From a virus, in IMG/VR virus record IMGVR_UViG_3300025093_000027, positions 1 through 52,875 of that record: 52,875 nt of DNA. One strand, written 5' to 3'. The notes beneath the pieces were generated by a model. That model was not told where the DNA came from, searched no databases, and saw only the letters and a program-made list of their open reading frames with translations. Shown here piece by piece: positions 3,001 through 51,080 of the stretch. The first letter of the stretch is position 1, and each line of letters begins with the position of its first letter. A program made the translations under genes and the position numbers.

Positions 3001-6000
3001 CAGATTCAGGAGTCCTATTAGCTAGAAGACAAGCAGCACTTGATAGACAGTTTGAGTTGCAGCGAGGAGTTAGAGAAGGTACTGTTGATCCATTTAGTGA
3101 TGCCTTTGTTAATGAAAGTGCTCAGTTACAAACAGAGATTAATAACACCACAAAAGCTTTAGAGGGATTAGCTAACGAAAGTGAGGTATTCCAAGCTATT
3201 TTAGAAAAAGCTGCCAAGATAGGTCAAAATATTAATGCTCTAGAGACTGGCCTAGATGATCTTATAGGAAAGGTTGCTTCTGGAGATGCTAGAGGAGTAC
3301 TACAAATTGCACAACAGCAGAGTGCTATTGGGGCAGCATTTAGTGGCACAGCGAATATACCACAAGCATTAACAGCTTTGACAGCCTTACAAAATGAAGG
3401 CAATCAGGCACTTGTAGATGTAGCCGCTGGTCAAGAGGGTGCAGGTAAGGAACTTAGAAGAGTATTGCTTAGACAGCTTGGTGGCAGATTAGCTGCTGGT
3501 GGTGGTATTGCTGGTCAATCTGCTAATAGATTTTTACAAGCAATTGCTTTCTCTGAGGAAAAGAAAGATCAGCTTGCCAAACTTGCAGAAGCTAGAGCCG
3601 CAAGACAAAGACAGATCAGAGAAGAGTTGTTACAACAAAACCAAAATCAAACACAACTTCTTAGAAAATTCTTAGAGTTAGGATTTGCTAAAACTTTTGA
3701 AGAGTCAGTAAGAGAATTTTCTGAGGCTGTAAAATTATTTGCTGGTGCTCCAGCAGAAGCTACAGATCCTTTTCCTCAAGAACGCCCAGATCTTTTTGAT
3801 CCTTTTGGTAGACCTAGAGGTTTTGATCCTCTTGATCCAGCAGGTCTTCTTGCCCCACCACAGGGGACAGATCCTGAAACTGGTCGTCCTGCTAGTGGTC
3901 CGTCAGGTCGATTTTTTGATCCAGCACTGGAGGAAAGTGTAAGTGATAATACGGAGTCTAATGAAAAACTCGATCAAAGTATAAGAGACTTAAATAAATC
4001 TATTGATAAACTTTCTACCGCAATTAATAATAGAAGAAGGGAAGAAAATGAAAGGCAGGAGCCGAATCCTGCCACATTTGATGATGGTTCACCAATTCAG
4101 GGGCTTAATTATCGTGGAGGTCTAATTAATTCCACTGGACCAGCTACATATAGAAATGCTGGAGGCACCATATTTGAACCTCGCGGAACTGATACCGTCC
4201 CAGCTATGCTTACTCCCGGTGAATTTGTCATTAAGAAATCTTCTGTTGATCAATACGGTCCCGGTGTAATGCAAGCTGTTAATCAAGGGAACGCTCAAAT
4301 TTTTGCAGCAAGCGGTGGAAGAGTTGGCAAGGGAGTGCTTTATAGAGCAGATGGTGGTGGTAGTGATGATAAACTTTTCGACGAAAGCAAATTCGGTGCT
4401 AAACCTCTTAATGATTTTGCTGAGTTTGTTGCGAAGCAAGGTGAAAGAATTGATCAAAACGCATCAGAGGTTGGATTTGGTGGAATCGGTCAGAAAGAAA
4501 CAGTTGATTTTGCTCGGCGTGCAGGTCTTGGATTCAAACAGGAAACATTAGAAGGTATTATTAATGAAACTCAAAATCCACTTGGCGGGGTGAGATCAGC
4601 AACAGGTAGACTTGCTGAGACTTCTGGATCTAGCAGCATATTTAGAGATGATCCTATAAGTAGTGATTTAAAAAATGCTGGAGTCCTTCCCGGCAGAAGA
4701 AAGTATCAAGCTCTTTATGAAGATACAGCACAATTGGGAAAAAGAGATCCTAATGCATCTAATCCTAATAATGTTACAAGATTTAACATAGATGACGCTA
4801 GACGATACGAAAGAGCATTAACAAATCCTTTAGCTGTAGCAAAAGAAATTTATGGTGAAGAGTTTTTAGAGGCAGCTAAAAGTAGAAAAAGTGTTAGCTT
4901 TAGAAGTAGAATCGCACGACCCGGAGAAGATAAACTTGTAGGTGCAAACAACTTTGGTGAATCTAGTATAGCTGAAGATGCTATTAATGCAGTTATCACA
5001 CAGGCACAGTCTATTGCTTTGGATAGTCCTCTTGTTCAAGAGTTAACTGATAGACCTGTTAGTCTTTATGATAGCAGATATGATGAGATTATAGCAGAGA
5101 TTAGAAATAATGCTGCTGGAAAACTTGGTTTTGATAGTGCTGAAGAAGCATTAAAAGCAGAATCTAAAGTTCAACAGTTTTTAGATACTAAAGGACGATT
5201 AGATGATTCAGCAGACCAGCTTGTTAAAAATGCAACTGGTGGGAAAGCTGATTTAAATGCTTTAGCTGGACAGCCCGGAATTGGAAATAGAACTGATTTT
5301 ATCAAAAGAGTTGACGATATTAATAAGCTTGAGGGAGATGCTCAAGAAGCAGCATTCCAACAACTTGATCAAGACATTGAGAAAGCACAAAGAATTTCTC
5401 AGAGAAGAGGTGGAGGCCGTCCAAGCGTTTTATCTGGTGGTTTACCTGCTAGTGTATTTGGCTCTGTCCCTACATTGGCGGCTGAACAAGAGCCGTTAGT
5501 AGACAGAAATGTCCCAGTTTTTGGTGGCGAAGGGCAGGGATCGCTGAATCTTAAACCATCTCTGCCAGCAGATGCCTTTACAAGTGATTTAACTATAGAG
5601 GAAATAAAAGCTAAGAATGCACAGCGAGAGGCAGAATTAAGACCTCTTGAATTTGAGTTTGGTCCAACTCCTTTAGAGCAAGCTCAGTTGGCAAACGAAG
5701 AAGCTGCGGCTAGAGTAGAGAGACTCAAAGCAGAAGGTGCAGAGTTAGAAGCGAGAGGGCAACAGTTAAGACAACAGCAAGCTGCTCAAACAGCCGCAAC
5801 TGACACATCTTCTGCTGTTAATGCCACTGCTCAACAACAAGAAACCGCAGCACAAAAAGCTAGAAGGAAACGTAATGAAGAATTAGAAGAAATAAGAAAG
5901 CTTAATCAAGCAAGAAGAAAAGCGGCAGATAAAGAGGCAGCGGATAGAAGAGCGGCAACTGGCGGTTTAAATCAACGAGCCGCAAGGGAAGCGGCAGATA

Positions 6001-7046
6001 AAGAGGCAGCGAAAAGAAGAGCGGCAACTGGTGGTTTAAATCAACGAGCCGCAAGGGAAGCGGCAGATGAAAAGGCAGCGAAAGAGAGACAGGCTAGAGA
6101 TCAAGAGCGTGCAAATCGTTTAGATGACATTAATAGTACTTCTGATCCTCTTGAAAGATCAGCAAAAAGAAGAAAGTATGATCAAGAGAGAAGGTCCAGA
6201 AATCAGGCAAGGGGCTTGCGTAGTTCATTAGCATTTTCATCTGATGGAACAAGTGGATTTGTATCTACTACAACTGAAGCACCAAGAGACAGAGGAGTAG
6301 AAGCACAAAAAAGAAAAGAAGATAGAGTTGTTGCACAGTTTAGGGCACAATATAACCAAGCTGTATTATCTAGAAACTTTGATGCGGCAAGAAGAATTGC
6401 ACAGAGATACTTTAGCTCTGGAGATATTTCTCCCGCAACTCAATCCATTATTAAGGGGCAAATTGAGGCTGGACGCAGAACTCTTGGTGTCGCTCAAAAC
6501 GTAGCCCTCTATGGCAGAGGCGGTAAGGTTAAAGGATTCTCCAATGGCGGTGATGTTCCAATTATGGCTCAAGACGGTGAGTTTGTAATGAACAGAAATG
6601 CCGTTAGTAGATTAGGAGTTGGAGCTTTAACTAGAATGAATAATGGTCTACCAAGTTTCCATAATGGTGGTCCGGTGTATAGACAATTAGGTGGAGGTAT
6701 AGCTCGTCGTCGTGGAGCTAATGGTCCTCAAACAGCAGTAGTTATTAATGGATCAGATGCAGCAAAAGAGTTAAATAACGCTATAATAACAGGAGGAGAG
6801 ACTGTTAAACAATCATGGCAAACATTGTTTGATACAGTTGCAGAAGGATTGAACACAGCATTGAGCCAAGTCAGTACTATACCAAATCAAATCAATGCGA
6901 CAATCGCTCCAGTTCAGATTGAAGGTGTTGGTAGCTTTACTGAAGCATTGGCAGCACAAATCGTTCCTAAGATTGTGGAGCAAATCGCACCACTTATCGG
7001 AGACAATACTAACGGTGGTACAACAGAACAAGGTGCAGGAGTATAA
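1..7046 (+). CDS. Tail tape measure protein (C-terminal ~2347 residues, 5' end outside window)
   Basis: The reading frame is open from the window edge (first full codon at base 3), so the ATG at 153 is internal. The product would set tail length and sit inside the tail tube. Support: very large size, low-complexity Ala/Gly/Gln-rich sequence, long helical stretches, and a hydrophobic Gly/Ala block (bases ~1020-1360) like the membrane-active segments of tape measures. Four copies of a Gly-Gly ... GE(F/M)V module recur (bases ~118-195, 225-348, 4162-4290, 6547-6650), as seen in other phage tape measures. A 69-bp tandem repeat lies near 5.9-6.1 kb. The gene ends in tandem TAA TAA and the next gene starts one codon later, so the two are probably co-transcribed. 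A lytic or peptidase domain was not recognised. Confidence 0.88.
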   Translation, partial: ADVGKNPAVSEALARQGGGKKGKSRATGRGFGSLTFASGGEVPVRISNGEMVVTDPKEVAANRGKLQSINKLATGGFASGTIARGPGTGTSDSILTTLPEGAFVVNAASTKKYLGLRRGGGVGRIKSFRDGGTNISDLTAARRGAAADLRFAQSTGDSAAIVKAEQQIKNLDKALQKANKNLNQNAIANQKASVASTISGKADLNEAKASKTAATANLQAAQAAAKQVAAGNIGPFGANARTVNTLAPTTQTRGPNLGNPQNVLPPGTDNSKLANFGQNLLGVTFALQTLTSSVFEADSAAAELVQSLSNTILTFSLLGSIIPLGKIGELIGFQSKFAGVLPQFAGASVGSFAAGGLGVAGAGLAGGLVGRQVGDQVANLVIGKQQEVAGLKGDSSLADAQEREAFGFGGAVLGGAVAGAAIGSFVPVIGTALGAAIGAGSGAIVAAVTTPLDIAAKQAAFETASKLKASGTALSKSLADIQKGFTTFKFDKVTTALDRQTTNVLGSLNTFADGIRGERGFWKRAFTNSATLAGEDFTKAFETAGKLLSEDAAKFEEQYQKALERFVKTLNPDVLKDTDNFSKALQKAADSGNSFARDIIEAGEAVVKSRLVAGSQTDVLRESILSQINEGGPTGLDSRVINGLITGTQALIAFASAEAQRTGGQIADVEIDAAQLRRIFEARGVTATTLGISEEEFANLLDASIAAYNVQIETQQQYIKEQQKAVLTQQNLNTIISDVSRELKSFVSELQQITIGLNFALDRTSTTLAEFESNVSNVFSGSGVANLGQITNPFSVDSDQGQASQENFFRRIETLGVDSTQLRQFQQLAAQGPQIIKDTISDLSARGLTADELIFKLQQAFQAQGLRLPPGIERALLEGVSRQGVEEGGVIPADVLEKLFASGELQNAFGEIFQQAAATADNFVEAYNRAIKITEQRTKIEAQLLQEQVKFTQAITESIIAQEKRTKQILAGNLGTGVGDGISAAERNVRLRAEAQAGSADSGVLLARRQAALDRQFELQRGVREGTVDPFSDAFVNESAQLQTEINNTTKALEGLANESEVFQAILEKAAKIGQNINALETGLDDLIGKVASGDARGVLQIAQQQSAIGAAFSGTANIPQALTALTALQNEGNQALVDVAAGQEGAGKELRRVLLRQLGGRLAAGGGIAGQSANRFLQAIAFSEEKKDQLAKLAEARAARQRQIREELLQQNQNQTQLLRKFLELGFAKTFEESVREFSEAVKLFAGAPAEATDPFPQERPDLFDPFGRPRGFDPLDPAGLLAPPQGTDPETGRPASGPSGRFFDPALEESVSDNTESNEKLDQSIRDLNKSIDKLSTAINNRRREENERQEPNPATFDDGSPIQGLNYRGGLINSTGPATYRNAGGTIFEPRGTDTVPAMLTPGEFVIKKSSVDQYGPGVMQAVNQGNAQIFAASGGRVGKGVLYRADGGGSDDKLFDESKFGAKPLNDFAEFVAKQGERIDQNASEVGFGGIGQKETVDFARRAGLGFKQETLEGIINETQNPLGGVRSATGRLAETSGSSSIFRDDPISSDLKNAGVLPGRRKYQALYEDTAQLGKRDPNASNPNNVTRFNIDDARRYERALTNPLAVAKEIYGEEFLEAAKSRKSVSFRSRIARPGEDKLVGANNFGESSIAEDAINAVITQAQSIALDSPLVQELTDRPVSLYDSRYDEIIAEIRNNAAGKLGFDSAEEALKAESKVQQFLDTKGRLDDSADQLVKNATGGKADLNALAGQPGIGNRTDFIKRVDDINKLEGDAQEAAFQQLDQDIEKAQRISQRRGGGRPSVLSGGLPASVFGSVPTLAAEQEPLVDRNVPVFGGEGQGSLNLKPSLPADAFTSDLTIEEIKAKNAQREAELRPLEFEFGPTPLEQAQLANEEAAARVERLKAEGAELEARGQQLRQQQAAQTAATDTSSAVNATAQQQETAAQKARRKRNEELEEIRKLNQARRKAADKEAADRRAATGGLNQRAAREAADKEAAKRRAATGGLNQRAAREAADEKAAKERQARDQERANRLDDINSTSDPLERSAKRRKYDQERRSRNQARGLRSSLAFSSDGTSGFVSTTTEAPRDRGVEAQKRKEDRVVAQFRAQYNQAVLSRNFDAARRIAQRYFSSGDISPATQSIIKGQIEAGRRTLGVAQNVALYGRGGKVKGFSNGGDVPIMAQDGEFVMNRNAVSRLGVGALTRMNNGLPSFHNGGPVYRQLGGGIARRRGANGPQTAVVINGSDAAKELNNAIITGGETVKQSWQTLFDTVAEGLNTALSQVSTIPNQINATIAPVQIEGVGSFTEALAAQIVPKIVEQIAPLIGDNTNGGTTEQGAGV
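5922..6083 (+). repeat. 69-bp tandem repeat inside the tape measure gene
   Basis: Units begin at 5922, 5991 and 6060, exactly 69 bp apart. The first two are full length with a few substitutions and the third is partial. Each encodes 23 residues beginning AADKEAA and ending LNQRAARE, a charged helical coil. The period is a multiple of three, so the reading frame is kept and the helix length can change by unit gain or loss. Confidence 0.9.
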
Positions 7047-8458: not shown

Positions 8459-11400
8459 ATGCCACCTAAGAATAGCTGCACTCCACAATCTGTATTCGGG
8501 GGTTATACTCAAACATTGTTTTTGGGTATGTCAGTCCTTGATTTCAGTGCTACTGCTGGTTGGAATGAACAGGCATCTACAGTTACAATTAAGTTAGTCA
8601 AAGATGAATGTGCTGGTCCCAGAGATTATTTTGACGATAATTTTAATTGGCAAACTTCTGTAAACTTTCCTGCTGGTGATCCCGGCTTCAATAATGCACC
8701 TATTGGTTCTGCTGCATTTTTTAAAGTAGAAGACTTTGAGTTCGCTGGTATCATTCAGTCTTTTAACATAACAGAAGATCCCGGTGGATTTCCTATCCTG
8801 ATTGTCAATCTTATTAGCCCAAACATTTTGTTAGATGGTGCTCAAGTCATTACCGATGAATATCAAGGTAGTGTTTTGAGTATGCCTAATGTTTTTAATG
8901 TTTATGGATGGTTAGAATCTAGAACTAATAATTGTCCCCAGATTGGGGGATTTGGTGCTCCTGCCGGTGGATTTGGAAATGCCAGAAGAAACGAACGTGG
9001 TATTCCATGGTATTTTGCTAAAGGTGCTTTACAGGTTTTACTTGGTGGTGCCGAAACTAGTGATTATAGTTGGCATGGAGGAATCACCTATAAACAAGGT
9101 TTAACTGCTGGTAAATATGGTAGCATTAGAAGTGAAGGCTATGTAGTTGACATTACTGATTTACCAACTACAACAGACATCTATTATAGATTAACAAATG
9201 GAAACTATACCCTATCTGAGCTTATCTCAGAGATATGTAAAGATGGTGGTTATGAGTACTATGTAGATTTAGTTCCTTGTAAAGGTGGTGTAACTCCACC
9301 TATTACTAATGTTATTAAAATCAGGACTGTATCTAGAAGGTCACAACCTGCACTGGGAGAAATCTCTACTTTTATTACAGATCAAAATACTGGTCCTGCT
9401 GGTAAGATTATTACACAAGATTCAATAGGTGAAGAGCTTAGAAATGATTCTCCAAACTCTGCATTTATTGTTGGTGCTAAAAAGAAACAAACATACGAGC
9501 AAACAAGTGCTAGTTTTATAACTCCTTTCTGGGGCTTCAATGATAGTGGTGGATTTAATACTGCTTCATTTACTGCTGGTCAATGGCAGATTACTGTAGA
9601 TGTTAGAGCACTTAACTTATCATTAAATACAACTACTGGTAGTAATACAATTACATTTTCAGAGAGTGCATTGCTTGCAGCTATGGGCTATTCTCAAGAT
9701 GCATTCTTATCTTGGCTACAGGCAAATGAACCATCCAGTAATTTGAGTACATATTTCTTTACTAACTTGTCTCTTAATGCACCATTTGACATAAAACTTG
9801 GTGCTGCTCTTGGCAAGCCTGCTATTGATGCAGCAAGACCTGCTGGTCAAGGTAGTAGAGATCCACAAACTACACAAGCTAAAGATGCACAAACATTTTT
9901 TAGTTGGTTAAAATCTTATGGTGATCAGGTATACGGTAAGCAATGGCTTGTTGCAGTGCCATGGGTATGTTATACAAATGATCCTGAAACAAATCAGTTA
10001 TTATTAAGTGATGAGCCATCTACTGATGGTGCTTGGCCTAATACTCTTACTGCTGTATTGGGAATGACTTTCCCATCTAGTTATACAGATTTCTTTGCTG
10101 ATGAGCAAGGTAAACTGCAAACTATTATGAGATTCAATGGTGCTATTAATACTTCTTTATTATCAGATGAAGACTATGTAACTGATGGCACAAATGTTTG
10201 GGTTAAAGGTGAAATTAATGAAAAGTGGGCATTGTTACCATCAACTTTCTTTGGTGCTCAATACGCTGCTGCTTTAGTTACTATTCCTAACAGAGTTACT
10301 ATCTCTCCGACACTTGCTCTGTCTCAAACTATGTATGGTGGTGCTAATTTTAGAGTACCTAGTGTTGGTGCAGATTTTAATCCAAATGCAAATCCGGGTG
10401 CTGTTGCTGGTCCTGCTGCTCTTCCATTTTTTGCTCCAGTATCCGCTGCACTTCCAGTAAAAAGTAATACAACTACTTACGGTCCTTGGTTGGCTACGGC
10501 ATCAAGCCTTATTGTTAATGGTCATCCTTTTGGTGGTAAGGTTTATTATGAGCAAGATGACGGTCTAGCACCATGGGAATATGGTGGATTTACATTTATG
10601 AATCTTGGTGCAGCAGCTAAGATTGATAACTCTATTACAAATGAAACAGTATCTGAAAGAGGTTCTGTAACTTTAGCTGGTTATCCAGAAAAAACTCTAG
10701 GTTTAGCTATTACAGATAGTCCCTCTTTAGTTGCTAGTAGAGTACTACAAAATGGTCTTTATCAAGGTTCAAATTATTACTATGTAAATACAGGTGGAGT
10801 TTCCACCAAAGCTGCACAGATTACTAACATTCAAGTAACTGTTAATGGTTCTGCTATTACAACTCAGTATCAGATTTCAAGCTTCACTCCAGTATTTGGT
10901 AGATTTACTAAAGATAATGCGGAGAGAGTTAAACAGATTGGTCAGCAAAGACTTGAGTTTGGTAGAAAAGTCCGAGCAGCATTAGCAAGAGAGGCTAGAC
11001 TTGCTGCTGGTCAAAGGAAAGCTGCATTACAACAATTTGCAAGTATGCTTAATCAGTCAGATTCAGATTCTGGTGCTTCAGCATATTTAACTGGTAAAAG
11101 ACTTACAAATAGAAGTAAAAATAATTATGTAGTAAGTAATACCTTACAAGGCACATCTAACACTGATGACTATGATAATAGTGCTAATGTTAGTATGGAT
11201 GGAATGCAATCACCAGTTCAAAAAAGAGCCGGTTCATCAAACTTATCTAAAGAGGTTGCAGATCCTAATAATCCAACTACATCAGATCAACCTAACTTTA
11301 GCGAAGCTGCACCTCCTCCCTTAAATGAGTACACTCCTATTAGGGTTAGCACTGATTATTTAGATTTTCTAGCTACTCCTGCTAGTGATGTTGCACAAAG

Positions 11401-13417
11401 ATCTAATGCTCCTTATTCGGGACATAATGTTATTGATGTAGCAAGAGGCACCTCAAGTGATTTTGATACTTATACAGGAACAACATCTCTACCCGCCATT
11501 GATGATGCTGGTGGAGATCCTTATGCTCAAACTGATTATAGATACATAGCACATAGAGGTCCATTAGTAGTCCATGGATGGGGTTATGACTTAGCTGGAA
11601 AACCAGTTCCAAACTCTGGTGGTGCAGACGTTGAAGATAGCTGGCAAGATAATTATGACGGGCTTGCCGATGGGTTTAAAGAGGGTTGGTTGCAAAATGA
11701 TAAATTGTGGCCTACTGCTCCAGTAGATTTAAGATATGATAGAAGAAGGGGTGTATGGACTACTCCACCTAGCTTTAGAATGTATAAGGTGACTGGTAGC
11801 CCCATATCTGCTGGTGCTAGCGGTCCAGTTGTAGTTTTAAATGCTAATGATGTGTATGATGCTAATGGTGATGTGATCAACACTAAAACTGTTAATGTTA
11901 CTAACATCACTGATAGTACGACACCATCTGGTCAGGATTACATGGCTTATTATGATAATGTTAATAATCAATATTGGCCTATCTTCCCCGGAAGTGGAGG
12001 AGGTGGTGGTGGATTAAGTGGTATCTGTATTGAGTTTGATGCACAGTATGAATGTGGTAATGTATCTAGTATTTCAGATATTCAACAAATTAAAATTGGT
12101 AATGGTATAGCTGCAATCGGTTATGAATCTGCTGCTTGTAATGGAACTAATCAATCTGGTGTGCAATTATCAACAATACATAAAGTATCAGCCCTAAATC
12201 TTTGTCTTCCTAGTGATACTACTAGTGCAGCGGCTACTCCACTAGATAGAAAAACTTTTGGAAACTTAGAATTTGGTAATGGTCTTGTTGTTTTAGAATA
12301 CAATGGAGAAGATGATGGTTCTCCTTCTGCTCCTGACGGTGCTGGTGCCGGTGGTAGTTTATGTGAGTATAAAATAGAAGCACCTTTATTGGTTACTGGT
12401 AGAAGAACTAGTGCATCACAGAGTGATCCAGCGTTTGGTCAGGGTTGCGTGCCTGCATCAGCATCAGATCAACCTAATTCTTTTTCTAAAGCAAAGACTT
12501 TTCACTTAGAGTTTGCTGGTGCTATAGCATTGTATAAAAAGCCTGTTGGAACCGCAGGCAATCTTGGTCCTAATTTAGATTTATGTGAAACTTTTGTAGC
12601 CAAAGTTTGCACTCCTACTATGTTTTATAAGAGTTGTGGTTTATCTTCAACAGTACTCGCTGCATCGACATATACTTCTGGACTAGCGGTTCATCAATAT
12701 GATGGTTTATTTTTTGAAGGTTTTCGTGCAGAGCCATTTCAGTCTTTAGCAGGTAGAAGCTTACTGATTCAGCATAGTCATCGAATTGAAGGCGGTTGTT
12801 CAACACATCCAGATGGCATTGGTCCTGTAGATCCGTCTATAAATCAAACTAATGGACGAAGGTTTCAAGACATACGGCTTAGTGAGGCATTTTTTGTAAA
12901 AGAGAGTTCATCACAAGGCTATCCTCCTCAACCGGGAAATTTTGGAACTTGCTTATTAGATCTACACATATGTGGAAAAACTGCCGATGTTGAGCTAGTA
13001 TGTGATGTCTCATGTAATAATAATGTTTTGACCAAGTTTACTCAGACTTTGAAATTTGAAGAAGGTGTTCTTCAAGACCCCGGAGAATGTGCTGGCAATA
13101 ATGTAACTCAAACAACCAGTATGAGTATGACTTATGCTAATAACGTAGACGCTGTTAGCAACTATACTTCTCCTGATAACATGTCAAGTGTAATTAGAGT
13201 TAATGCTTCTACATCTTCGTATACAGTAACATTGCCAGATGCTAGTACTATGATTGCCTATACAAATACAGTTATGAAAGTAGATAATACAGTCAATACA
13301 GTTACAGTTCAAGGTGCTGGTGGTGCAACTATTAATGGTGCTGCAAGTCAGACACTGACAAATCAGTATGAATCAATAACCGTTCATACAGATGGCACTA
13401 ACTGGTTTATAAACTAA
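8459..13417 (+). CDS. Large tail-tip / baseplate hub protein with fibre-like C-terminus
   Basis: 1652 residues behind a good AGGAG site. The first ~350 residues resemble a tail hub region (an opening SVLDFSATAGWNE segment followed by alternating strands). The middle is long and Tyr/Asn/Gly-rich. A run of six glycines at about residue 1180 (GSGGGGGGLSG) looks like a hinge before a separate Cys-containing C-terminal domain. The last ~80 residues (repeated TVT strands ending TDGTNWFIN) match the style of fibre or tail-needle C-termini in many phages. The gene overlaps the oppositely oriented gene at 13414 by four bases. Most likely it joins the tail tip to host recognition; which domain binds the host is inferred. 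Confidence 0.6.
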   Translation: MPPKNSCTPQSVFGGYTQTLFLGMSVLDFSATAGWNEQASTVTIKLVKDECAGPRDYFDDNFNWQTSVNFPAGDPGFNNAPIGSAAFFKVEDFEFAGIIQSFNITEDPGGFPILIVNLISPNILLDGAQVITDEYQGSVLSMPNVFNVYGWLESRTNNCPQIGGFGAPAGGFGNARRNERGIPWYFAKGALQVLLGGAETSDYSWHGGITYKQGLTAGKYGSIRSEGYVVDITDLPTTTDIYYRLTNGNYTLSELISEICKDGGYEYYVDLVPCKGGVTPPITNVIKIRTVSRRSQPALGEISTFITDQNTGPAGKIITQDSIGEELRNDSPNSAFIVGAKKKQTYEQTSASFITPFWGFNDSGGFNTASFTAGQWQITVDVRALNLSLNTTTGSNTITFSESALLAAMGYSQDAFLSWLQANEPSSNLSTYFFTNLSLNAPFDIKLGAALGKPAIDAARPAGQGSRDPQTTQAKDAQTFFSWLKSYGDQVYGKQWLVAVPWVCYTNDPETNQLLLSDEPSTDGAWPNTLTAVLGMTFPSSYTDFFADEQGKLQTIMRFNGAINTSLLSDEDYVTDGTNVWVKGEINEKWALLPSTFFGAQYAAALVTIPNRVTISPTLALSQTMYGGANFRVPSVGADFNPNANPGAVAGPAALPFFAPVSAALPVKSNTTTYGPWLATASSLIVNGHPFGGKVYYEQDDGLAPWEYGGFTFMNLGAAAKIDNSITNETVSERGSVTLAGYPEKTLGLAITDSPSLVASRVLQNGLYQGSNYYYVNTGGVSTKAAQITNIQVTVNGSAITTQYQISSFTPVFGRFTKDNAERVKQIGQQRLEFGRKVRAALAREARLAAGQRKAALQQFASMLNQSDSDSGASAYLTGKRLTNRSKNNYVVSNTLQGTSNTDDYDNSANVSMDGMQSPVQKRAGSSNLSKEVADPNNPTTSDQPNFSEAAPPPLNEYTPIRVSTDYLDFLATPASDVAQRSNAPYSGHNVIDVARGTSSDFDTYTGTTSLPAIDDAGGDPYAQTDYRYIAHRGPLVVHGWGYDLAGKPVPNSGGADVEDSWQDNYDGLADGFKEGWLQNDKLWPTAPVDLRYDRRRGVWTTPPSFRMYKVTGSPISAGASGPVVVLNANDVYDANGDVINTKTVNVTNITDSTTPSGQDYMAYYDNVNNQYWPIFPGSGGGGGGLSGICIEFDAQYECGNVSSISDIQQIKIGNGIAAIGYESAACNGTNQSGVQLSTIHKVSALNLCLPSDTTSAAATPLDRKTFGNLEFGNGLVVLEYNGEDDGSPSAPDGAGAGGSLCEYKIEAPLLVTGRRTSASQSDPAFGQGCVPASASDQPNSFSKAKTFHLEFAGAIALYKKPVGTAGNLGPNLDLCETFVAKVCTPTMFYKSCGLSSTVLAASTYTSGLAVHQYDGLFFEGFRAEPFQSLAGRSLLIQHSHRIEGGCSTHPDGIGPVDPSINQTNGRRFQDIRLSEAFFVKESSSQGYPPQPGNFGTCLLDLHICGKTADVELVCDVSCNNNVLTKFTQTLKFEEGVLQDPGECAGNNVTQTTSMSMTYANNVDAVSNYTSPDNMSSVIRVNASTSSYTVTLPDASTMIAYTNTVMKVDNTVNTVTVQGAGGATINGAASQTLTNQYESITVHTDGTNWFIN

Positions 13418-21585: not shown

Positions 21586-23208
21586 CTAACTTCTTAGGGG
21601 TAAGACATTTTTTACTAAAAATCCCTTCTTTTCTTTTTGTCTCATTCCCCTAAACAACATCACCGCTTTTTCCTGTAATTTATTTTTATGCTTCTCATAA
21701 TCTTCAGAGAACATAACTACATTATCCAAATTGCAAGTAGAGTCACTAAGAGTAATAAACGCCATCTTCTTACCCTTAGATTCTCCTCGTTTAATAGTCC
21801 ATTCCCTAATACTTTTGAGTTCTGCGGCAATAGCGATACCATTAGTAGATTGGAATCCATCTAGGAACTCTTTACAAGTGCAGTTCGCGTGACTTGTATC
21901 ATATTCATCTACTTTAGAACATGTAAGAGCGACCCCTAAGTATTCCTGTTCATTTTTAGCTCTCCATGCAGGACTATCTTCTAAATTATACCCCGGATTT
22001 TCTAAACTATCTATCAGTCCATCAATAATCTCTACCCTGTCTCTTTTAAAGATAGGACGTTTTTTATCTGACCAGTCATTAGTAAGCAACATTTTATTTA
22101 GTGTTTCAAGTAATGTTTCCTCCATGTTCTTTTGGACCCATTCTATTTCTCTCTTGCTCAACTCTTTGTACTGTTCATAGATGTGCTTCATTTCTAATCT
22201 ATTAATGTAAAAGCAATCACAAGCACCAGACAGAATAAGTGCAAGCATAGAATCCTTTTTGATACAATGACCATACATCATCAAGCATTGATCAAAGTTC
22301 ATGTCATCTACATTTTTATTACCATTCTCTTTGATGCAACTAATAAGTTTATCATAAACAGAACTACCAACTTTCTTTACATTTGTCATGCCGAAGGTTG
22401 GACAATCCCCTACAAGTTGAAAGTCTTTTTGTAACTTCTTAATGTTTGGAGGTTGAACATGGATGTTCATTAGGCGAGCATTGTTCACCAGTTCATTAAT
22501 CTCTTCAAATGTATCTGGCTTGCCAATAGCATGTTTCAAATAAGAAGTAAAGAACTCATGAGGGAAATGTGCTTTAGCATAAGCAGTAAGATAACCATTA
22601 GTAGCATAAGCATAAGAGTGAGATTTGTTGAACGAGTATCTTTGTGATGCCTCAATCCACGAGAAGATTTCTGATGCTTCTTCTTCATTCACGATACCAT
22701 GCTCAATGGCTTTACTGATAAACTCGCCTTTGATTTTACCCATCAACTCTACATTCTTTTTACCAATAGCTTTACGAAGAACATCTGCTTCCTGCAAAGA
22801 GAAACCAGCAAGTTCTTTAGCAATTGCCATCGCTTGCTCTTGATAAACAAGGATACCTTGAGTAGGGGCAAGAATAGGTTCAAGGGCGGGATGCAGATAC
22901 TCCACATCCTCACGCCCATGCTTCCTATCAATATAATGGTTGGTAAGATTTTTACCTTTGATAAAACTCTCTGTACAACCGGGACGAATAATAGCAATCA
23001 AGTCAGATAGTTCATCAATGCTACGAGGTTGTACTTTCTCTGCATTAGACCCTTGGATTTCCAACTGGAACACACCTTTAGTATTACCCTCACAAATCAA
23101 GTCCCAAGTAGCAGAGCAGTCTTTTGGCAACTTCTCTACATCAGGATCAAAGATAATACGACCATTACTATCAGTTTCAAATGTACATCCACAGGGAAAA
23201 GTTCTCAT
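21586..23208 (-). CDS. dnaE: DNA polymerase III alpha subunit, C-terminal part (split dnaE)
   Basis: 540 residues containing the second half of a bacterial DnaE. After a short Cys-bearing N-terminus it continues with NTKGVFQLEIQG, LIAIIRPGCTESFIKG, LAPTQGILVYQEQAMAIAKE and YSFNKSHSYAYATNGYLTAY, all conserved fingers/palm blocks downstream of the third catalytic aspartate. Later come the helical little-finger region and an OB-like segment (KGKKMAFITLSDSTCNLDNV). It starts ATGA, overlapping the exonuclease stop. With the N-terminal part it totals about 1171 residues, close to a full bacterial DnaE, so nothing appears lost. No intein motifs occur at either end. Confidence 0.9.
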   Translation of the reverse strand: MRTFPCGCTFETDSNGRIIFDPDVEKLPKDCSATWDLICEGNTKGVFQLEIQGSNAEKVQPRSIDELSDLIAIIRPGCTESFIKGKNLTNHYIDRKHGREDVEYLHPALEPILAPTQGILVYQEQAMAIAKELAGFSLQEADVLRKAIGKKNVELMGKIKGEFISKAIEHGIVNEEEASEIFSWIEASQRYSFNKSHSYAYATNGYLTAYAKAHFPHEFFTSYLKHAIGKPDTFEEINELVNNARLMNIHVQPPNIKKLQKDFQLVGDCPTFGMTNVKKVGSSVYDKLISCIKENGNKNVDDMNFDQCLMMYGHCIKKDSMLALILSGACDCFYINRLEMKHIYEQYKELSKREIEWVQKNMEETLLETLNKMLLTNDWSDKKRPIFKRDRVEIIDGLIDSLENPGYNLEDSPAWRAKNEQEYLGVALTCSKVDEYDTSHANCTCKEFLDGFQSTNGIAIAAELKSIREWTIKRGESKGKKMAFITLSDSTCNLDNVVMFSEDYEKHKNKLQEKAVMLFRGMRQKEKKGFLVKNVLPLRS

Positions 23209-23882
23209 GCAAAACTTCCTTTAAACTTATCAACACTAACTTGACGACGAGCAAACTTCAAAAACCTAACCAAGATTTTAGCAGTATCAACAACATCAGA
23301 AATAGCACTATGGGCTTGACCATGAGATTGTAATCCAAAGAACTCTTTCAATGTATCCATCTTATAGTTTTCTGGTTCTGGCATATTCTCAAACCAGTAG
23401 GTAATGTAATGAAGTAAATCCATGTTGCCCATCTTGGCGAATGGATAATCCAACTTATGCTTATCACACATGTTACGAATAATGATGTCATCAAATCCAT
23501 CTACATTATAACCACTGTATGCTGGTTCTGTAAAGTAGATTCTTCTCATTGGATCTTTCTCAATGTGATACTTCTGCAAATAAGAACAGAAGTTTTTCAT
23601 AGCAACCTTTTGTGATTTACCTTTCTTCCAAGTACTTACAATGTCTTCAGAAGAACATCCTCTTGTTGAAGCGTGCCAATCAATAGTCTTCTGCACACCT
23701 GTTGTAAAATACTCATCCTTATCAATACCCGGAGGTTTAACTGTAACCTCAAAGGTATCATCCATTTTAATTTCCAAAGTTCTAGGATTAACTGGGACCG
23801 CTGCAATCTCTACTGGATTAGCAGTAGTAGGGTCAGGTCCATCAGTTTCCAAATCATAAACAATAATCCAACGATGATTCAT
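23205..23882 (-). CDS. DnaQ-type 3'-5' proofreading exonuclease (DEDDh)
   Basis: 225 residues. The DEDDh family signature is intact: motif I YDLETDGPDP gives D10 and E12; motif II lies in YSGYNVDGFDD (about residue 124); motif III reads HSAISDVVDTAKIL, with His and Asp spaced five apart (about residues 192-197). The enzyme removes misinserted nucleotides. It sits between the two halves of the split polymerase gene, with TAATG and ATGA overlaps on the two sides, so all three are translated as one coupled set. Confidence 0.9.
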   Translation of the reverse strand: MNHRWIIVYDLETDGPDPTTANPVEIAAVPVNPRTLEIKMDDTFEVTVKPPGIDKDEYFTTGVQKTIDWHASTRGCSSEDIVSTWKKGKSQKVAMKNFCSYLQKYHIEKDPMRRIYFTEPAYSGYNVDGFDDIIIRNMCDKHKLDYPFAKMGNMDLLHYITYWFENMPEPENYKMDTLKEFFGLQSHGQAHSAISDVVDTAKILVRFLKFARRQVSVDKFKGSFA

Positions 23883-25777
23883 TATTCAACTCCTGCTAAA
23901 ATGTCTGCAACGGACATAACTTTGTCCAACATTGTAATACCCAAAACGTCAATTTTCAATAGTCCAACTTCCTCACAACTTGGTCCTTCAAATCCAGCGA
24001 TGTAACCTTTATCATTTGCATCAGTAGATCTAACCATAGGACAGGTTTGTGAAATCTTGTATGGTGAAACAACAACACCAGCAGCATGTTTAGATTGGAT
24101 AATCTTAGTTCCTTCTAAACGAATCGCTTGTTTGAAGATCTCTGCTTTATCGCCAACCATCTCTCCTTCTTCATTAATTTGAACCCAATCTTTAAACCTA
24201 TTAGGATTGTTCTCAATGCACCATCTAATGATAGAAGAGGTTCCAAGTTCCTCTTTCATCTCTTGGAGTTCATCAGCAATCTTTGCTTCATCCAAGATGT
24301 GTTTAGTCATAGCATTTTGTTCTGCAAAAGAAATACCACCTACGGCGTGCATAACCCTTTTCAATGCAGAACGACCTTTTAGAGTTGTATAAGTAACGAT
24401 TTGAGCAACATTCTCTTCACCATACTTATTTCTAATGTATTCAATAACTTTAGGTCTTGCTTCCTTTGGAACATCAATATCAATATCCGGCCAACTAATT
24501 TTACCCGGAGAGTTACGACCTGCGTTATAAAATCTTTCAAAGAGTAGGTCTGATGGAATAGGATCAATCTGCGTGATATCAATCAGATAAGATACCATAC
24601 AACCAGCAGCACTACCACGACCGGGACCAGTAATGTATCCGTTCTCATGACAGAACTTAATAATGTCACGAACGATAAGAAAGTAACTGCTCAATCCACA
24701 AGACGTAAAAACTTCCAACTCATGATTGACTCTTTCACCATAAACTTGAAATTGTTCAGGGTCATTGTCCATACTAATATGAGCCATCTTCTTTTTCCAT
24801 CCATCACGGCACAACTTACGAAGATAATCTTCATCGCTCATGCCGCCGGGACATGGAAACTGTGGAGGATTAGGAGCAGATAGAATACTATAATCATCAC
24901 ACATGTCTGCAATTTTATTAGTATTCTCAATCTCCTCTGCTGTATGCCATTGTTTCATTTCTTCAAAAGAAGGAATATGAAAGTTGTCTGATTCAAAGAA
25001 ACATTGTAATCCAACACTATTACCTTGCTTGATGTCCATTTGGATTTGACCCAGAGTTTTCTTCAATGAAGTACATAAAAGAACTCTTTGATCAATCGCA
25101 TCTTCTCTACGAGCATAATGTGCATCTGGAGTAGCAACACATGGGATACCAGTAACTTTAGATACTTGACGCAAACAGTTAGCAATAGTTTTAGCTAGAG
25201 GGTTTCTCTGACTATCAATCATTTGAATCTCAATAAAGAAGTTACCTTCTCCATAAAGCTGTTGTAGATAGTTTGCCCATTCACAACCTTTCTGTAACCA
25301 ATCAGGATCAAGCCTTTCCTCGCTTTCATCCATCATTTTGTATTGAAGGATAGAGCCAAGATGACCACTAAATGTCACTAAGTTTTTACCACTAATAGCA
25401 AAACCAACATCTTGCATAGAAATTCTAGGTTTATGATAAAATCTATCTGGGTGATTTGAAAGAGCAACTAATCTTAAAATCTCTTTCCAACCTTCTAGAT
25501 TCTTTGCTAGAATAACTTGATGGAGAAGTTTCCTGTTGTCAGGATTCTTATCAGTTGACTCGCCAAAGCAGAAATAAAACTCGCAACCTAAGATAGGTTT
25601 GAGTCCATTGTTTTTCATTGTTTTAACAAAATCAACAGCACCACTAACTGTGCCATGATCTGTCAAGGCACAAGCTGTAGAACCAATCTCTTTGATGCGA
25701 GATGCAATCTGTGAAGTCTTTGAAAGTCCATCGAGCAAACTATATTCAGAATGGACATGTAGTGGCGTATAACTCAT
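23882..25777 (-). CDS. dnaE: DNA polymerase III alpha subunit, N-terminal part (PHP plus palm)
   Basis: 631 residues. An N-terminal PHP domain is visible (LHVHSEYSLLDGLSK, ALTDHGTVSGAV, TPDAHYARRED) with its metal-binding His and Asp residues present. The polymerase core follows: TGPGRGSAAGCMVSYLIDIT, then WPDIDIDVPKE near residue 430 with two catalytic aspartates, and KIDVLGITMLDK near the end with the third. The protein stops about 16 residues past that site, and the rest of the enzyme is encoded after the exonuclease gene. The fork polymerase must be assembled from two chains. Confidence 0.9.
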   Translation of the reverse strand: MSYTPLHVHSEYSLLDGLSKTSQIASRIKEIGSTACALTDHGTVSGAVDFVKTMKNNGLKPILGCEFYFCFGESTDKNPDNRKLLHQVILAKNLEGWKEILRLVALSNHPDRFYHKPRISMQDVGFAISGKNLVTFSGHLGSILQYKMMDESEERLDPDWLQKGCEWANYLQQLYGEGNFFIEIQMIDSQRNPLAKTIANCLRQVSKVTGIPCVATPDAHYARREDAIDQRVLLCTSLKKTLGQIQMDIKQGNSVGLQCFFESDNFHIPSFEEMKQWHTAEEIENTNKIADMCDDYSILSAPNPPQFPCPGGMSDEDYLRKLCRDGWKKKMAHISMDNDPEQFQVYGERVNHELEVFTSCGLSSYFLIVRDIIKFCHENGYITGPGRGSAAGCMVSYLIDITQIDPIPSDLLFERFYNAGRNSPGKISWPDIDIDVPKEARPKVIEYIRNKYGEENVAQIVTYTTLKGRSALKRVMHAVGGISFAEQNAMTKHILDEAKIADELQEMKEELGTSSIIRWCIENNPNRFKDWVQINEEGEMVGDKAEIFKQAIRLEGTKIIQSKHAAGVVVSPYKISQTCPMVRSTDANDKGYIAGFEGPSCEEVGLLKIDVLGITMLDKVMSVADILAGVE

Positions 25778-41556: not shown

Positions 41557-42028
41557 TCTCATTACCCTTGACAAAGGCAACTAATCGCTTCTTAACATTA
41601 TCCATTACATCTCTATCCTTAAACATCTTACCAATAGCGATTCTAAATCTATAAGATGTCAATACATCAACTGTCTCTACACCTAGAACACTACCGATAA
41701 GTTTCTCAAACTCTTCAGTTCCAGTTTTATTTCCATCTCCCAACATAAAGTTAGTGTGTCCAACCCAGAACTTAAAATGCCTACTGGCAAGAGACTGTTC
41801 TGTAAGAGGTAGTATTCCAAATGGAGTCATAATGGACCTAATCATAGGTTGCATCTGACCAAAACCTTCGTTGAGTCCGAGTGCTTCTAAATCTTCCGGG
41901 TCAAGCTCTTCATCATCAAAATCATCTGAATCCAATATATCATCTTCTTCTAATGTCTGATCATAAGCATCAACCCACTTTTCCCATCCAATATCATAAT
42001 CATCAGAGTATTTCATGTCATCACTCAT
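41528..42028 (-). CDS. Acidic hypothetical protein
   Basis: 166 residues from the ATG at 42028 behind AGAGGTG; the longer frame starts with GTG. The first 50 residues are very acidic (EEDDILDSDDFDDEELDPED); the rest is compact with FGILPLTEQSLASRHFKFWV and a basic helical end. It overlaps ClpP by 29 bases. The acidic head could be a partner-binding tail for a protease or a scaffold. Confidence 0.55.
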   Translation of the reverse strand: MSDDMKYSDDYDIGWEKWVDAYDQTLEEDDILDSDDFDDEELDPEDLEALGLNEGFGQMQPMIRSIMTPFGILPLTEQSLASRHFKFWVGHTNFMLGDGNKTGTEEFEKLIGSVLGVETVDVLTSYRFRIAIGKMFKDRDVMDNVKKRLVAFVKGNENDEQESGSE

Positions 42029-42467
42029 TTTTTTCACCTCTTATATTAAATATTTTGGTGGGGTCTATTTTACGTTTCTTTTCTTTTTCTAGAACTCTAA
42101 CTTGCTGTTGTAATGACTCAAGTATTTGTTCTTCGTATCCCTTCCAGAATTCAAGAGTTGCTGCTACAAATGTTGTTTCTGCTATCTTGTCTGGATCTGG
42201 GAAGTTTTGAATAGCATCAATGAGTACTGTATTAAGCTCACCATGCACAAGATTGCATAGCAAGGTCGCTGCCATTTCTGCACTTTCTATACTTTTATCA
42301 TTAGCATCTATCGCAAAAACATATTCTCCCGTCTCTTGATTAAGTTGTAGTAATAAAGAAAACGAAGGGTCATCCATTAACGCCTTCTCTTGTCTAAAAT
42401 TTACTGACTTTGGAACTTCTACTTTATTCTCTTCAAGTTTTTCTTTTTTTCTAAAAAAGTTGAACAT
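42021..42467 (-). CDS. Hypothetical protein with basic N-terminus
   Basis: 148 residues with MFNFFRKKEK at the start, then a mixed fold (LLQLNQETGEYVFAIDANDK, AAT-Leu-Leu-Cys and Trp-Lys-Gly-Tyr segments) and a Lys/Arg-rich C-terminal helix. AGGAG ribosome site present. It is the first gene after a promoter-terminator pair. No family recognised. Confidence 0.6.
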   Translation of the reverse strand: MFNFFRKKEKLEENKVEVPKSVNFRQEKALMDDPSFSLLLQLNQETGEYVFAIDANDKSIESAEMAATLLCNLVHGELNTVLIDAIQNFPDPDKIAETTFVAATLEFWKGYEEQILESLQQQVRVLEKEKKRKIDPTKIFNIRGEKNE

Positions 42468-42480
42468 ATATACTCCTAAT

Positions 42481-42508
42481 AAAAAAGGGGATATACAATT
42501 ATACCCCC
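42481..42508 (-). terminator. Rho-independent terminator 13 nt before the 148-residue gene
   Basis: - strand stem GGGGGTATA / TATATCCCC (9 bp, one G-T), loop ATTG, then six T. It sits about 30 nt downstream of the predicted start of the strong promoter at 42539-42566 and ends 13 nt before the next ATG, with the ribosome site between. Confidence 0.85.
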
Positions 42509-42538
42509 TAAAGTAGTTCCTATTGCTGTTTTTTTGAC

Positions 42539-42566
42539 ATTATACGGCTTATCCTATGTCTGTCAA
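42539..42566 (-). promoter_or_regulatory. Near-consensus sigma70 promoter TTGACA-16-TATAAT
   Basis: - strand TTGACA (42561-42566) and TATAAT (42539-42544) with a 16-base spacer. The -35 lies in the last codons of the DUF1501 gene and the -10 just after its stop. It points at the 148-residue gene, but the terminator is only ~30 nt into the transcript. Confidence 0.85.
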
Positions 42567-43781
42567 GATGTTCTTTGCCTCCTCTTTTACTATATACATT
42601 GGACGACCTTCTATTGACGACCATGACATTTTTTTATCAATACCAAGATGATCAAAGATAGTCCATTTCAAGTCTTCTGGTTCACACAAACCATCATCTG
42701 GTGCTTCAGCATTCTTATCAGAAGTCCCAACAACTCTACCCATATCATAACTACCACAACTAATCATGAGCGGAGCAAGTCTTGCCCAGTGGTCACGACC
42801 ACCATTAGCATTGACTTTAGGAGTTCTACCAAACTCTGATGTAACAACCAGCATAACCCTTTCATATAGTCCACGTTTCTCTAACGTATCAATAAGTTTA
42901 GCAAGATAAGCATCAAGTTGGACTTGTCTATTATTTAGACTAGCCTCAATGTTCTGATGCATGTCCCAGCCACCATAATTGATAGTAATAAACTTTGATC
43001 CAGTTTCTATCAATCTCACAGCAGTTAATAGATCTTTGCCAAAACTTGTCTCTTTATAATCTTCGTATTCAGCATCCTGCTCTACCTTGAAAGCTTTAGA
43101 TGCTTCACCCAAGATTACTTCTACTGCTTGACCTCTTAACTCTTTCCATGATTTAGCGAGCAAATCATTGTTATGAAAATTAGATTCGACTTTATTTAGC
43201 ATAGCAATACGAGCAGCAAACCTTTTATCGGGTACTCCAAGTTGTAGGTCTTTTCTGCCTTCTCTAGTAGCATCATATCCAGTGTATCTACCACCCATCC
43301 AAGCAGCATCATCATGTTGAATACTGTTTACTTTAATGTAAGTTGGTAAACCATTAGGAGCATTTGTACCATGAGCACCAGAGATAACACTTCCATAACT
43401 GGGCCATTTTTGCGTAGTTCCAGCACCAAAGTTTGGTTCTCCGGTCATGACCCAATGCGTAGCACTTGCGTGATTAGCATCCCTATGATGGAAGGCACGA
43501 AAGAGCGATACTTTGTCTCCCCTTTTTGCAAGATCCTTAAATAAACCACCGAACTCCATACCAGCAATGTTACTACGAACAGCACCAGTAACAGACCGAT
43601 AATTAGATGGAGCCAAAGGGATTGGATTAAAAGTTTCAATATGAGTTGCACCACCACCAAGAAAAACATAAATAACTGCATTTTTATCTTTATCTTTTGT
43701 ATCTTGTGCAAACGAAACATTCCCTTGTGTCAACATGCCACCCATGGCACCAGTAGTCAATAAAAAGTTTCTTCTGTCCAT
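42549..43781 (-). CDS. DUF1501 protein (sulfatase/alkaline-phosphatase fold) with twin-arginine signal
   Basis: 410 residues. The start MDRRNFLLTTGAMGG has the Arg-Arg, hydrophobic stretch and small-residue pattern of a Tat signal that exports folded protein; AQ at about residue 25-26 is a plausible cleavage point. DUF1501 signatures follow: VIYVFLGGGATHIETFNPIP, HHRDANHASATHWVMTGEPN, VMLVVTSEFGRTPKVNANGG and RDHWARLAP, with the Asp/His residues. The family is very abundant in Planctomycetes, Verrucomicrobia and Bacteroidetes, and its substrate is generally unknown. The gene is colinear with its neighbours and has no bacterial flanks, so it looks like a phage-carried auxiliary gene. It could act on host cell-envelope sulfated or phosphorylated glycans; that is inference. 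Confidence 0.88.
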   Translation of the reverse strand: MDRRNFLLTTGAMGGMLTQGNVSFAQDTKDKDKNAVIYVFLGGGATHIETFNPIPLAPSNYRSVTGAVRSNIAGMEFGGLFKDLAKRGDKVSLFRAFHHRDANHASATHWVMTGEPNFGAGTTQKWPSYGSVISGAHGTNAPNGLPTYIKVNSIQHDDAAWMGGRYTGYDATREGRKDLQLGVPDKRFAARIAMLNKVESNFHNNDLLAKSWKELRGQAVEVILGEASKAFKVEQDAEYEDYKETSFGKDLLTAVRLIETGSKFITINYGGWDMHQNIEASLNNRQVQLDAYLAKLIDTLEKRGLYERVMLVVTSEFGRTPKVNANGGRDHWARLAPLMISCGSYDMGRVVGTSDKNAEAPDDGLCEPEDLKWTIFDHLGIDKKMSWSSIEGRPMYIVKEEAKNILTDIG

Positions 43782-43790
43782 AATAATCTC

Positions 43791-45110
43791 CTACCAAGCT
43801 CTACAAGACCAATAACGTGCTTTCCATTTTGGACCGGGATTGTCACAATTATGTCTTGCTCTAAAGCTTTTTCTGCGTTCAGGAATATTCTTTTTGATCT
43901 TCATGTTAGGATCACCAAATCGAACAATAACTACATTACCACTCTCATTTTTAGTATAAACAGCAAACTTTTTAGGTCCACCGGGAGTTCTGAAAGGTTT
44001 ATTGAGAGTAACTTTTCTACCTTTGTATTCAGCAGCAAATGTAGATGCTTTAGCTCTTGGATGACCCTTTGGCAAAAGATCATTATCTGTAGTATAGGCA
44101 GAGTTAGATGGTCTTCCAGTTCTCAATAGAGTAAGAAATGCATTTACTCTAGCCATAGCCCATCCGTCTCTAGACATTTTAGGAGCATGACTTGATGAAT
44201 AAGCTCCTGCACCACGACGATAAACAGCTTTAAGCATACCTAAAGTTGCTTTTGAACCCTTACCTTTTGCATTATGCTCTGCTACTTTCTTTGACAATTT
44301 TGCAGTAGTTTCTTTGCTAAAAGTAATCTTACCTGACTTATCTTTAGCACTATCAGGTTTGTTCTTTTTAGATCCTTTCTTTTGATCTTTTTTAGGAGCA
44401 GGAGTTCTTCTAGGGTCTTTTGGTCCCGGTTTATCTGCCTCTGCATAATCTGCCTTACCCTTAATTGCTTTCATGTACTCTGCATGATCTTTACCGGGCA
44501 TGAAGACATTTTTACCATCTTCACTTTTATGAGAATGAACATCATCTAATCCAAGTTCTTTTGCTCTTTCCATAGCTTCACCGGGATTATCAAATACATC
44601 TTTAGAAAGTTCTTCTGCTGTAGCACCTTGCCAAGTCATAGTTGGAGGAGCAGTTACCTGATGTTTGCCTACAAAAGAAGTATCTTTCTTTTTAGGATCT
44701 TTCTCTTCATAGATTGGATCTGGCTCATCCAAATCTGCTTTAGAAACAAAAGACAACATTCTACCATTCTTCTTGTAGTTGCCCATCCTTTCAAAGTAGA
44801 ATAGCTCTCCGGTCACAGGATCTCTATACTTAAATGCTCCCTGTGCCCTTTTTAAAGCCTCTTGAGAGGGTCTATCTTTATCTCCCGGTTTAGCAGGACG
44901 ATAGTTTTTACCTTCTCTTTCCTTCTTTTTACGAATATTTTCCCAAAGGCCAGCAACATCGACCTCTTCTGTTTCTTCTCCAAAATCAACATAATCTGAC
45001 TCTTCAGGAATAACAAAGTTTGCCTCTGTCAATTCTTCAGTATCACCTAAATCTGCTGCCTTGGACTCAAAATGTTCTGATAAGCTATTAAATAAATCTT
45101 CTTGTTTCAT
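43791..45110 (-). CDS. Basic virion/scaffold-like protein with conserved phage C-terminal domains
   Basis: 439 residues. The N-terminal third is acidic, the rest strongly basic (KKDQKKGSKKNKPDSAKDKS). A middle segment ATLGMLKAVYRRGAGAYSSS leads to a Ser-Arg-Asp-Gly-Trp-Ala block, and the last 60 residues contain RFGDPNMKIKKNIPERRKSF then CDNPGPKWKARYWSCRAW. I recall these two blocks from uncharacterised proteins of tailed phages and giant viruses (DUF-type), often near head genes. It could be a scaffold or core protein. AGGAG lies 8 nt before the ATG. Confidence 0.6.
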   Translation of the reverse strand: MKQEDLFNSLSEHFESKAADLGDTEELTEANFVIPEESDYVDFGEETEEVDVAGLWENIRKKKEREGKNYRPAKPGDKDRPSQEALKRAQGAFKYRDPVTGELFYFERMGNYKKNGRMLSFVSKADLDEPDPIYEEKDPKKKDTSFVGKHQVTAPPTMTWQGATAEELSKDVFDNPGEAMERAKELGLDDVHSHKSEDGKNVFMPGKDHAEYMKAIKGKADYAEADKPGPKDPRRTPAPKKDQKKGSKKNKPDSAKDKSGKITFSKETTAKLSKKVAEHNAKGKGSKATLGMLKAVYRRGAGAYSSSHAPKMSRDGWAMARVNAFLTLLRTGRPSNSAYTTDNDLLPKGHPRAKASTFAAEYKGRKVTLNKPFRTPGGPKKFAVYTKNESGNVVIVRFGDPNMKIKKNIPERRKSFRARHNCDNPGPKWKARYWSCRAW

Positions 45111-51052: not shown

Positions 51053-51080
51053 ATTATACGTCAAATTCACTAACTGTCAA
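51053..51080 (-). promoter_or_regulatory. Near-consensus sigma70 promoter TTGACA-16-TATAAT
   Basis: - strand TTGACA (51075-51080) and TATAAT (51053-51058) with a 16-base spacer. The -35 lies at the stop codon of the upstream gene. It directs the 76-residue gene and ssb. Confidence 0.88.

Follow-up and report, generated by a model that had tools for sequence, protein, structure and literature searches.

We found that the 52,875-nt IMG/VR record analyzed here over its whole length (hereafter the window) carries a DUF1501 gene of a kind that phages have repeatedly taken up, up to four close to one another, probably as a means of altering the surface of the infected cell. In the reading that we favor, to which we assign a probability of about 0.5, phages of Planctomycetota/Verrucomicrobiota (PVC) bacteria captured the gene, its product would leave the cytoplasm through the Tat system, and it would hydrolyze phosphate or sulfate esters at the envelope for surface remodeling or nutrient release. 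The evidence is strong for the DUF1501 identity of the protein, its origin and its export signal; its enzymatic role, its benefit and the host are deduced. A sequence-only reading of the locus is confirmed in what it observed and partly supported in how it interpreted the observation.

The open reading frame is intact, with an ATG start and an AGGAG 5' of it, and its first residues form a Tat-type signal.

42549..43781, minus strand: DUF1501 gene, 410 aa, with a Pfam match and an AF2 model (pLDDT 86.8, pTM 0.85)
43707..43781, minus strand: Tat-type signal region, residues 1-25 (MDRRNFLLTTGAMGGMLTQGNVSFA), read from the sequence and the aligned RR pair; putative cleavage site

The Pfam model of DUF1501 (PF07394) matches residues 34-405 of the protein with an E-value of 3.6e-63, spanning profile positions 2-386 of 390 and scoring 214.5 bits against a curated cut-off of 27. 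This full-length match bears out the family assignment made from the letters, and by every sequence test the protein is a new member of DUF1501. PHROG, NCBIfam and single-sequence PDB searches with the protein returned no match. A twin-arginine motif and a hydrophobic stretch are present in the N-terminus, MDRRNFLLTTGAMGGMLTQGNVSFA-QD, along with a plausible site for signal peptidase. When only rows reaching the N-terminus are counted, the RR pair of the RR-x-F motif is present in 33/33 phage rows of the same clade, 15/15 other phage rows and 13/13 cellular DUF1501 rows, and the long phage copies have RR in 123 of 125 cases and KR in the other two. The Tat signal claimed earlier stands and is not undone by re-calling the N-terminus. 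A Tat motif has been reported for DUF1501 in another setting (PMC5122149).

A gap of 9 nt separates the gene from the phage gene ahead of it, within an uninterrupted phage operon. The run around it contains IMPDH-like, GNAT, HAD, ThyX, ClpP-like and ribonucleotide reductase (RNR) genes, and DnaB, primase, UvsX, dNMP kinase, a split DNA polymerase III alpha and a glycosyltransferase are encoded elsewhere in the window. Its immediate surroundings are as follows.

43791..45110, minus strand: directly upstream gene, 439 aa, C-terminus phrog_7595, weak DUF5824
42021..42467, minus strand: directly downstream gene, 148 aa, no family; same order in contigs L002 and L003
42486..42509, minus strand: terminator-like (intrinsic) hairpin and T run, identical in three relatives
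42539..42566, minus strand: perfect TTGACA-16-TATAAT promoter-like site over the DUF1501 3' end; hexamers and spacing kept in L002

Of 81 clustered loci, 45 have a member of the upstream gene's family near DUF1501. Two other IMG/VR contigs from other metagenomes, the 81-kb L002 and L003, which starts inside the DUF1501 gene, encode a 93% identical protein with the same neighbors on the sides that each contig holds. Since two independent metagenome contigs share the gene order at this identity, the locus is no chimera, and with phage genes on both sides and an order conserved in relatives, the proposed seat in a phage operon holds. Comparison with L013, which is the same contig as L002, gave a dN of 0.039 and a dS of 0.66 (ratio about 0.06, NG86), and on this sequence measure the window gene is under purifying selection.

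An assembly artefact or passenger host DNA would be a natural suspicion for a family that is typical of PVC cells and hugely expanded in planctomycetes, with 65 homologues in one genome, all the more as bins and databases do hold misassigned contigs. That explanation is already contradicted, and we give it practically no weight: three independent contigs have a common gene order with phage genes on both sides, dN/dS is 0.06, the base composition of the gene is that of the window, and DUF1501 is present in 50/50 re-examined viral records. Nor does the protein fall inside one bacterial strain with bacterial flanks, as the contamination or chimera envisaged earlier would have it; the flanking DNA is phage.

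The scarcity of described phage examples remarked on before holds for characterized records. A tblastn search of INPHARED (50,697 records, 1e-5) found no genuine DUF1501 relative; the sole weak match, MT837425 (MT837425.1, L012; 'Bacteriophage sp.'), looks actinobacterial, with pyruvate kinase-like and response-regulator genes, and was set aside. In the literature naming DUF1501 we found no paper on a phage DUF1501, and the sole phage paper found to name it (PMC5418858) lists only a 61-aa weak CDD match, for which it was discarded. UniProt holds one entry, from an uncultured Caudovirales phage, already named DUF1501 and uncharacterized, so a bare phage DUF1501 annotation is not unprecedented. 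In the virome search that had been suggested as a check, a profile scan of IMG/VR gave 197 contigs matching DUF1501, which makes the window gene one of many and not a single oddity; the matching contigs fall into several lineages. From the best 80 of these 197, which were retrieved, 50 records were searched again with the Pfam model, and DUF1501 was found in all 50.

Nearly all of the closest relatives (48-93% identity) have one DUF1501 copy, a group at 36-40% identity has mostly four, e.g., in contigs of 122 and 110 kb, and the remaining re-searched records have one or two. The four differing genes lie close together on each contig (L054, L055, L056, L057, L059, L060, L061, L063 and L064), and the copies on such contigs mostly come from different DUF1501 subfamilies. 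Among phages sharing a PD-(D/E)XK-like (cluster-6 nuclease) gene with the window, only 2 of 24 long records, some of the records being fragments, carry DUF1501; the low proportion indicates that the gene is accessory there. The genes around phage DUF1501 copies are mainly replication and nucleotide genes. In group C, the gene upstream of DUF1501 (cluster 42) was considered as a tail-tube gene and dropped for want of support.

The best 80 loci listed in a scan of GTDB species genomes are almost all from Planctomycetota or Verrucomicrobiota, and among these matches the nearest cellular relatives of the window protein are from Planctomycetota, followed by Verrucomicrobiota. The phylogeny against planctomycete DUF1501 that had been proposed was built from 94 rows under a mixture model by a quick search without bootstrap, for which reason single deep joins in it are not dependable. 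In this tree, the window protein lies within a 13-row phage-only clade (97, starred), whose sister is a set of 14 cellular rows (95, starred), nearly all Planctomycetota; the union of the two has 100 (starred). The PVC affinity claimed from the sequence thus agrees with the closest cellular rows, which are Planctomycetota. The phage label changes 14 times on the tree, at least 12 of these being forced by starred branches, and constraining all phage rows to a single clade lowers the log-likelihood by 1812 units (AU p 1e-30). For the sampled phage copies, these alignments reject a single origin.

The age of the captures differs. The window protein is only about 41% identical to its closest cellular relative among the matches listed, from which we take its capture to be old. 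Judged by the same kind of comparison, two others are recent: the L071 copy shares 88% identity with a cellular Opitutales gene, and copy 2 of L055 shares 78% with a planctomycete gene. The Opitutales contig is cellular by content, encoding SufS-like, sulfatase-like and multihaem cytochrome-like proteins as read from the sequence, and has a DUF1549-like gene just before DUF1501, as in the phage contig L071. The neighbors of the nearest cellular DUF1501 subfamily were variable, and we found no functional lead among them. Apparent archaeal and Chloroflexota homologues, L093 and L094 from a 'Lokiarchaeota' MAG and L130 (VFHP01000007.1) from a 'SAR202' MAG, all lie in phage clades; reading two of these contigs showed phage neighbors, and all three are best regarded as misbinned phage contigs. 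By sequence, then, the window gene has a cellular origin and sits in genuine phage genomes, which is what defines a host-derived auxiliary gene.

DUF1549 and DUF1559 genes are typical of PVC bacteria. Among the phage contigs, a DUF1549+DUF1553 pair is directly upstream of DUF1501 in L071, L081 and L082 and adjoins it in L087, and L077 has a DUF1559 pilin-like gene. PSCyt2/PSD1 (DUF1549/DUF1553) gene clusters have been described in PVC bacteria (PMC5615132), and their position next to DUF1501 is credited in PMC4452313 to Kamneva 2012. With the recent captures, the Opitutales match and the DUF1549 and DUF1559 partners, a PVC host is likely for the phage group as a whole, and we infer one for the window phage itself. 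Window DUF1501 stands alone in comparison with this PVC module: its neighbors match other families or none, with no DUF1549/DUF1553 beside it, and PF07583 was not found in the 81-kb relative. A 133-aa fused remnant at 10381-10782 of L083 corresponds to the DUF1549-DUF1501 pair that is intact in its close relative L082 (7149-10167).

Other relatives have different partners. In L026, L027, L029 and L034 (at 9227), the DUF1501 stop codon is also where a PAP2-family phosphatase gene begins, and a small His/Pro/Tyr-rich protein takes its place in others; no PAP2 partner was seen beside the window gene. Small secreted-looking proteins of this His/Pro/Tyr-rich type occur beside DUF1501 in L016, L019, L020, L032, L033 and L035 (cluster 23) and in L054-L060 (cluster 32). 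A second small RR-signal protein (cluster 52) is encoded just before DUF1501 at L019 7558, L028 7579, L032 7124 and L033 1770.

To consider what the protein may do, we turned to its predicted structure. The AF2 model has a mean pLDDT of 86.8 and a pTM of 0.85, with residues 1-29 as its low-confidence part. Foldseek and VIA-align place this predicted model in the alkaline-phosphatase superfamily, with Z up to 20.2; it matches NPP, sulfatase and PafA structures at Z 19-20 over about 250 residues, NPP-type phosphodiesterases and sulfatases being the best matches. The conserved blocks of the protein map as follows.

43470..43472, minus strand: H104, invariant; putative superfamily nucleophile position by spacing (H-x8-[TS]-G)
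42957..42965, minus strand: D273-M-H275, invariant D and H, putative metal ligands
42822..42836, minus strand: E316-F-G-R-T320 block, where solved sulfatases have D-H-G
42789..42794, minus strand: D330-H331, invariant, putative metal ligands

The His/Asp blocks pointed out previously are real, H104, D273/H275 and D330/H331 being invariant in 73 phage and cellular sequences. The full invariant set across phage and cellular rows is H104, D273, H275, E316, F317, R319, T320, N324, G328, R329, D330 and H331, and the window keeps the residues invariant in cellular DUF1501 (H104, D273, H275, E316, R319, T320, N324, D330 and H331). The canonical D-H-G metal motif is replaced: in a profile match, EFG aligns with the DHG of a solved sulfatase, with EF invariant in 73 rows and G in all but one of them. 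The Asp after strand 1 is absent in DUF1501. H-x8-[TS]-G is exact in 69/73 rows, and we take the H104-x8-T-G spacing to be that between the nucleophile and the conserved TG of sulfatases and NPPs; by spacing, the nucleophile site would hold His. Across DUF1501, both the metal and the nucleophile residues canonical for the superfamily appear to be substituted, and we infer a remodeled metal site in which His takes the nucleophile position. With these catalytic residues apparently replaced, catalysis may differ or be absent. DUF1501 has been described as being without biochemical characterization (PMC4452313).

From these observations, a course of events can be proposed in which a DUF1501 gene of a PVC host was captured by phages infecting these bacteria. 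The gene would be expressed among replication and nucleotide-metabolism genes, probably before lysis; expression ahead of the late phase is suggested because genes of these two kinds are the main neighbors of phage DUF1501. The protein would fold in the cytoplasm and then be carried by the host Tat system to the periplasm or surface. There it would act like host DUF1501. Its likeliest role is that of a metal-dependent hydrolase belonging to the alkaline-phosphatase superfamily, whose targets would be the phosphate or sulfate esters carried by envelope glycans or glycolipids. As an outcome, the infected cell surface may be remodeled (receptor change, exclusion or easier release), or phosphate or sulfate may be freed. 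The sulfated or phosphorylated glycan chemistry suggested by the sequence-only reading fits the predicted fold, though canonical residues appear substituted in DUF1501.

The fold would also serve an exported protein that frees phosphate or sulfate for phage synthesis, with surface remodeling not its purpose. Such scavenging is consistent with the nucleotide-metabolism neighbors in the window and, in several relatives, with the coupling of DUF1501 to a PAP2 phosphatase gene, but the window gene has no PAP2 neighbor and several differing copies per phage fit diverse targets better than bulk supply, and we consider it unlikely. About equally doubtful is an envelope binder that has lost the ancestral chemistry and holds a glycan or partner, the phage copy competing or masking, e.g., as a receptor block. 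The family-wide EFG in place of DHG and the missing first Asp argue for it, whereas the remaining His/Asp/Glu/Arg set is strictly invariant in phages and cells, as expected for an active site. Far less probable is a virion component, packaged or carried on the particle and acting on entry. In the 203-kb L083, a T4-type portal gene lies downstream of DUF1501 at a distance of a few kb; in the window and groups A-C, however, DUF1501 is surrounded by RNR, ThyX, helicase, primase and polymerase genes, and a Tat signal would be useless to a protein that is built into virions while still in the cytoplasm.

Envelope ester hydrolysis by a captured, exported DUF1501 protein can be extended, tentatively and with more doubt than the proposal itself, to an exported cassette of PVC phages. 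It would comprise between one and four DUF1501 proteins that differ from each other, sometimes accompanied by DUF1549/DUF1553, a PAP2 phosphatase or small secreted His/Pro/Tyr-rich proteins, recruited many times from hosts, and might rebuild the PVC envelope through a His-centered site of the alkaline-phosphatase type.

The planctomycete DUF1501 subfamily (L095-L138), at about 41% identity and in the sister clade, resembles the window protein in its full domain, Tat N-terminus and invariant residues. In contrast to it, the window protein is phage-borne, is encoded with phage replication and nucleotide genes, and reads ETFNPIP at the (D/E)TFDPKP motif, in which its clade has changes of its own. 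In comparison with NPPs, sulfatases and PafA-type enzymes, the predicted fold is alike over residues 28-410 (Z about 20), while the protein has EFG for DHG, no strand-1 Asp and a His at the apparent nucleophile position. As with host-derived phage auxiliary genes (AMGs/morons), there is capture from a host, accessory distribution and purifying selection, but the usual AMGs/morons are cytoplasmic metabolic enzymes, unlike an exported envelope protein with up to four differing copies nearby. An exported envelope protein would be added to the host gene types domesticated by phages. The repeated uptake of this host gene by phages points to what matters at the host envelope; phage DUF1501 may also mark the host of otherwise hostless uncultured phage contigs, and the phage copies single out a small number of conserved, compact DUF1501 proteins for testing. 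DUF1501 has no known function despite its expansion in planctomycetes.

Some further features of the window were noticed. Two very long plus-strand ORFs (3-7046 and 8459-13417) have almost no PHROG match. At 21586-25777, DNA polymerase III alpha is encoded in two ORFs, which flank a distinct exonuclease-looking gene of 225 aa. The hairpin downstream of DUF1501 lies 30-60 nt beyond the promoter-like site (42486-42566), both elements are kept in L002, and the pair could, from its sequence, give rise to a short transcript or to a regulated leader of the gene that follows. A second perfect TTGACA-16-TATAAT site is found at 51053-51080, and its counterpart in L002 (2681-2708) has an identical spacer.
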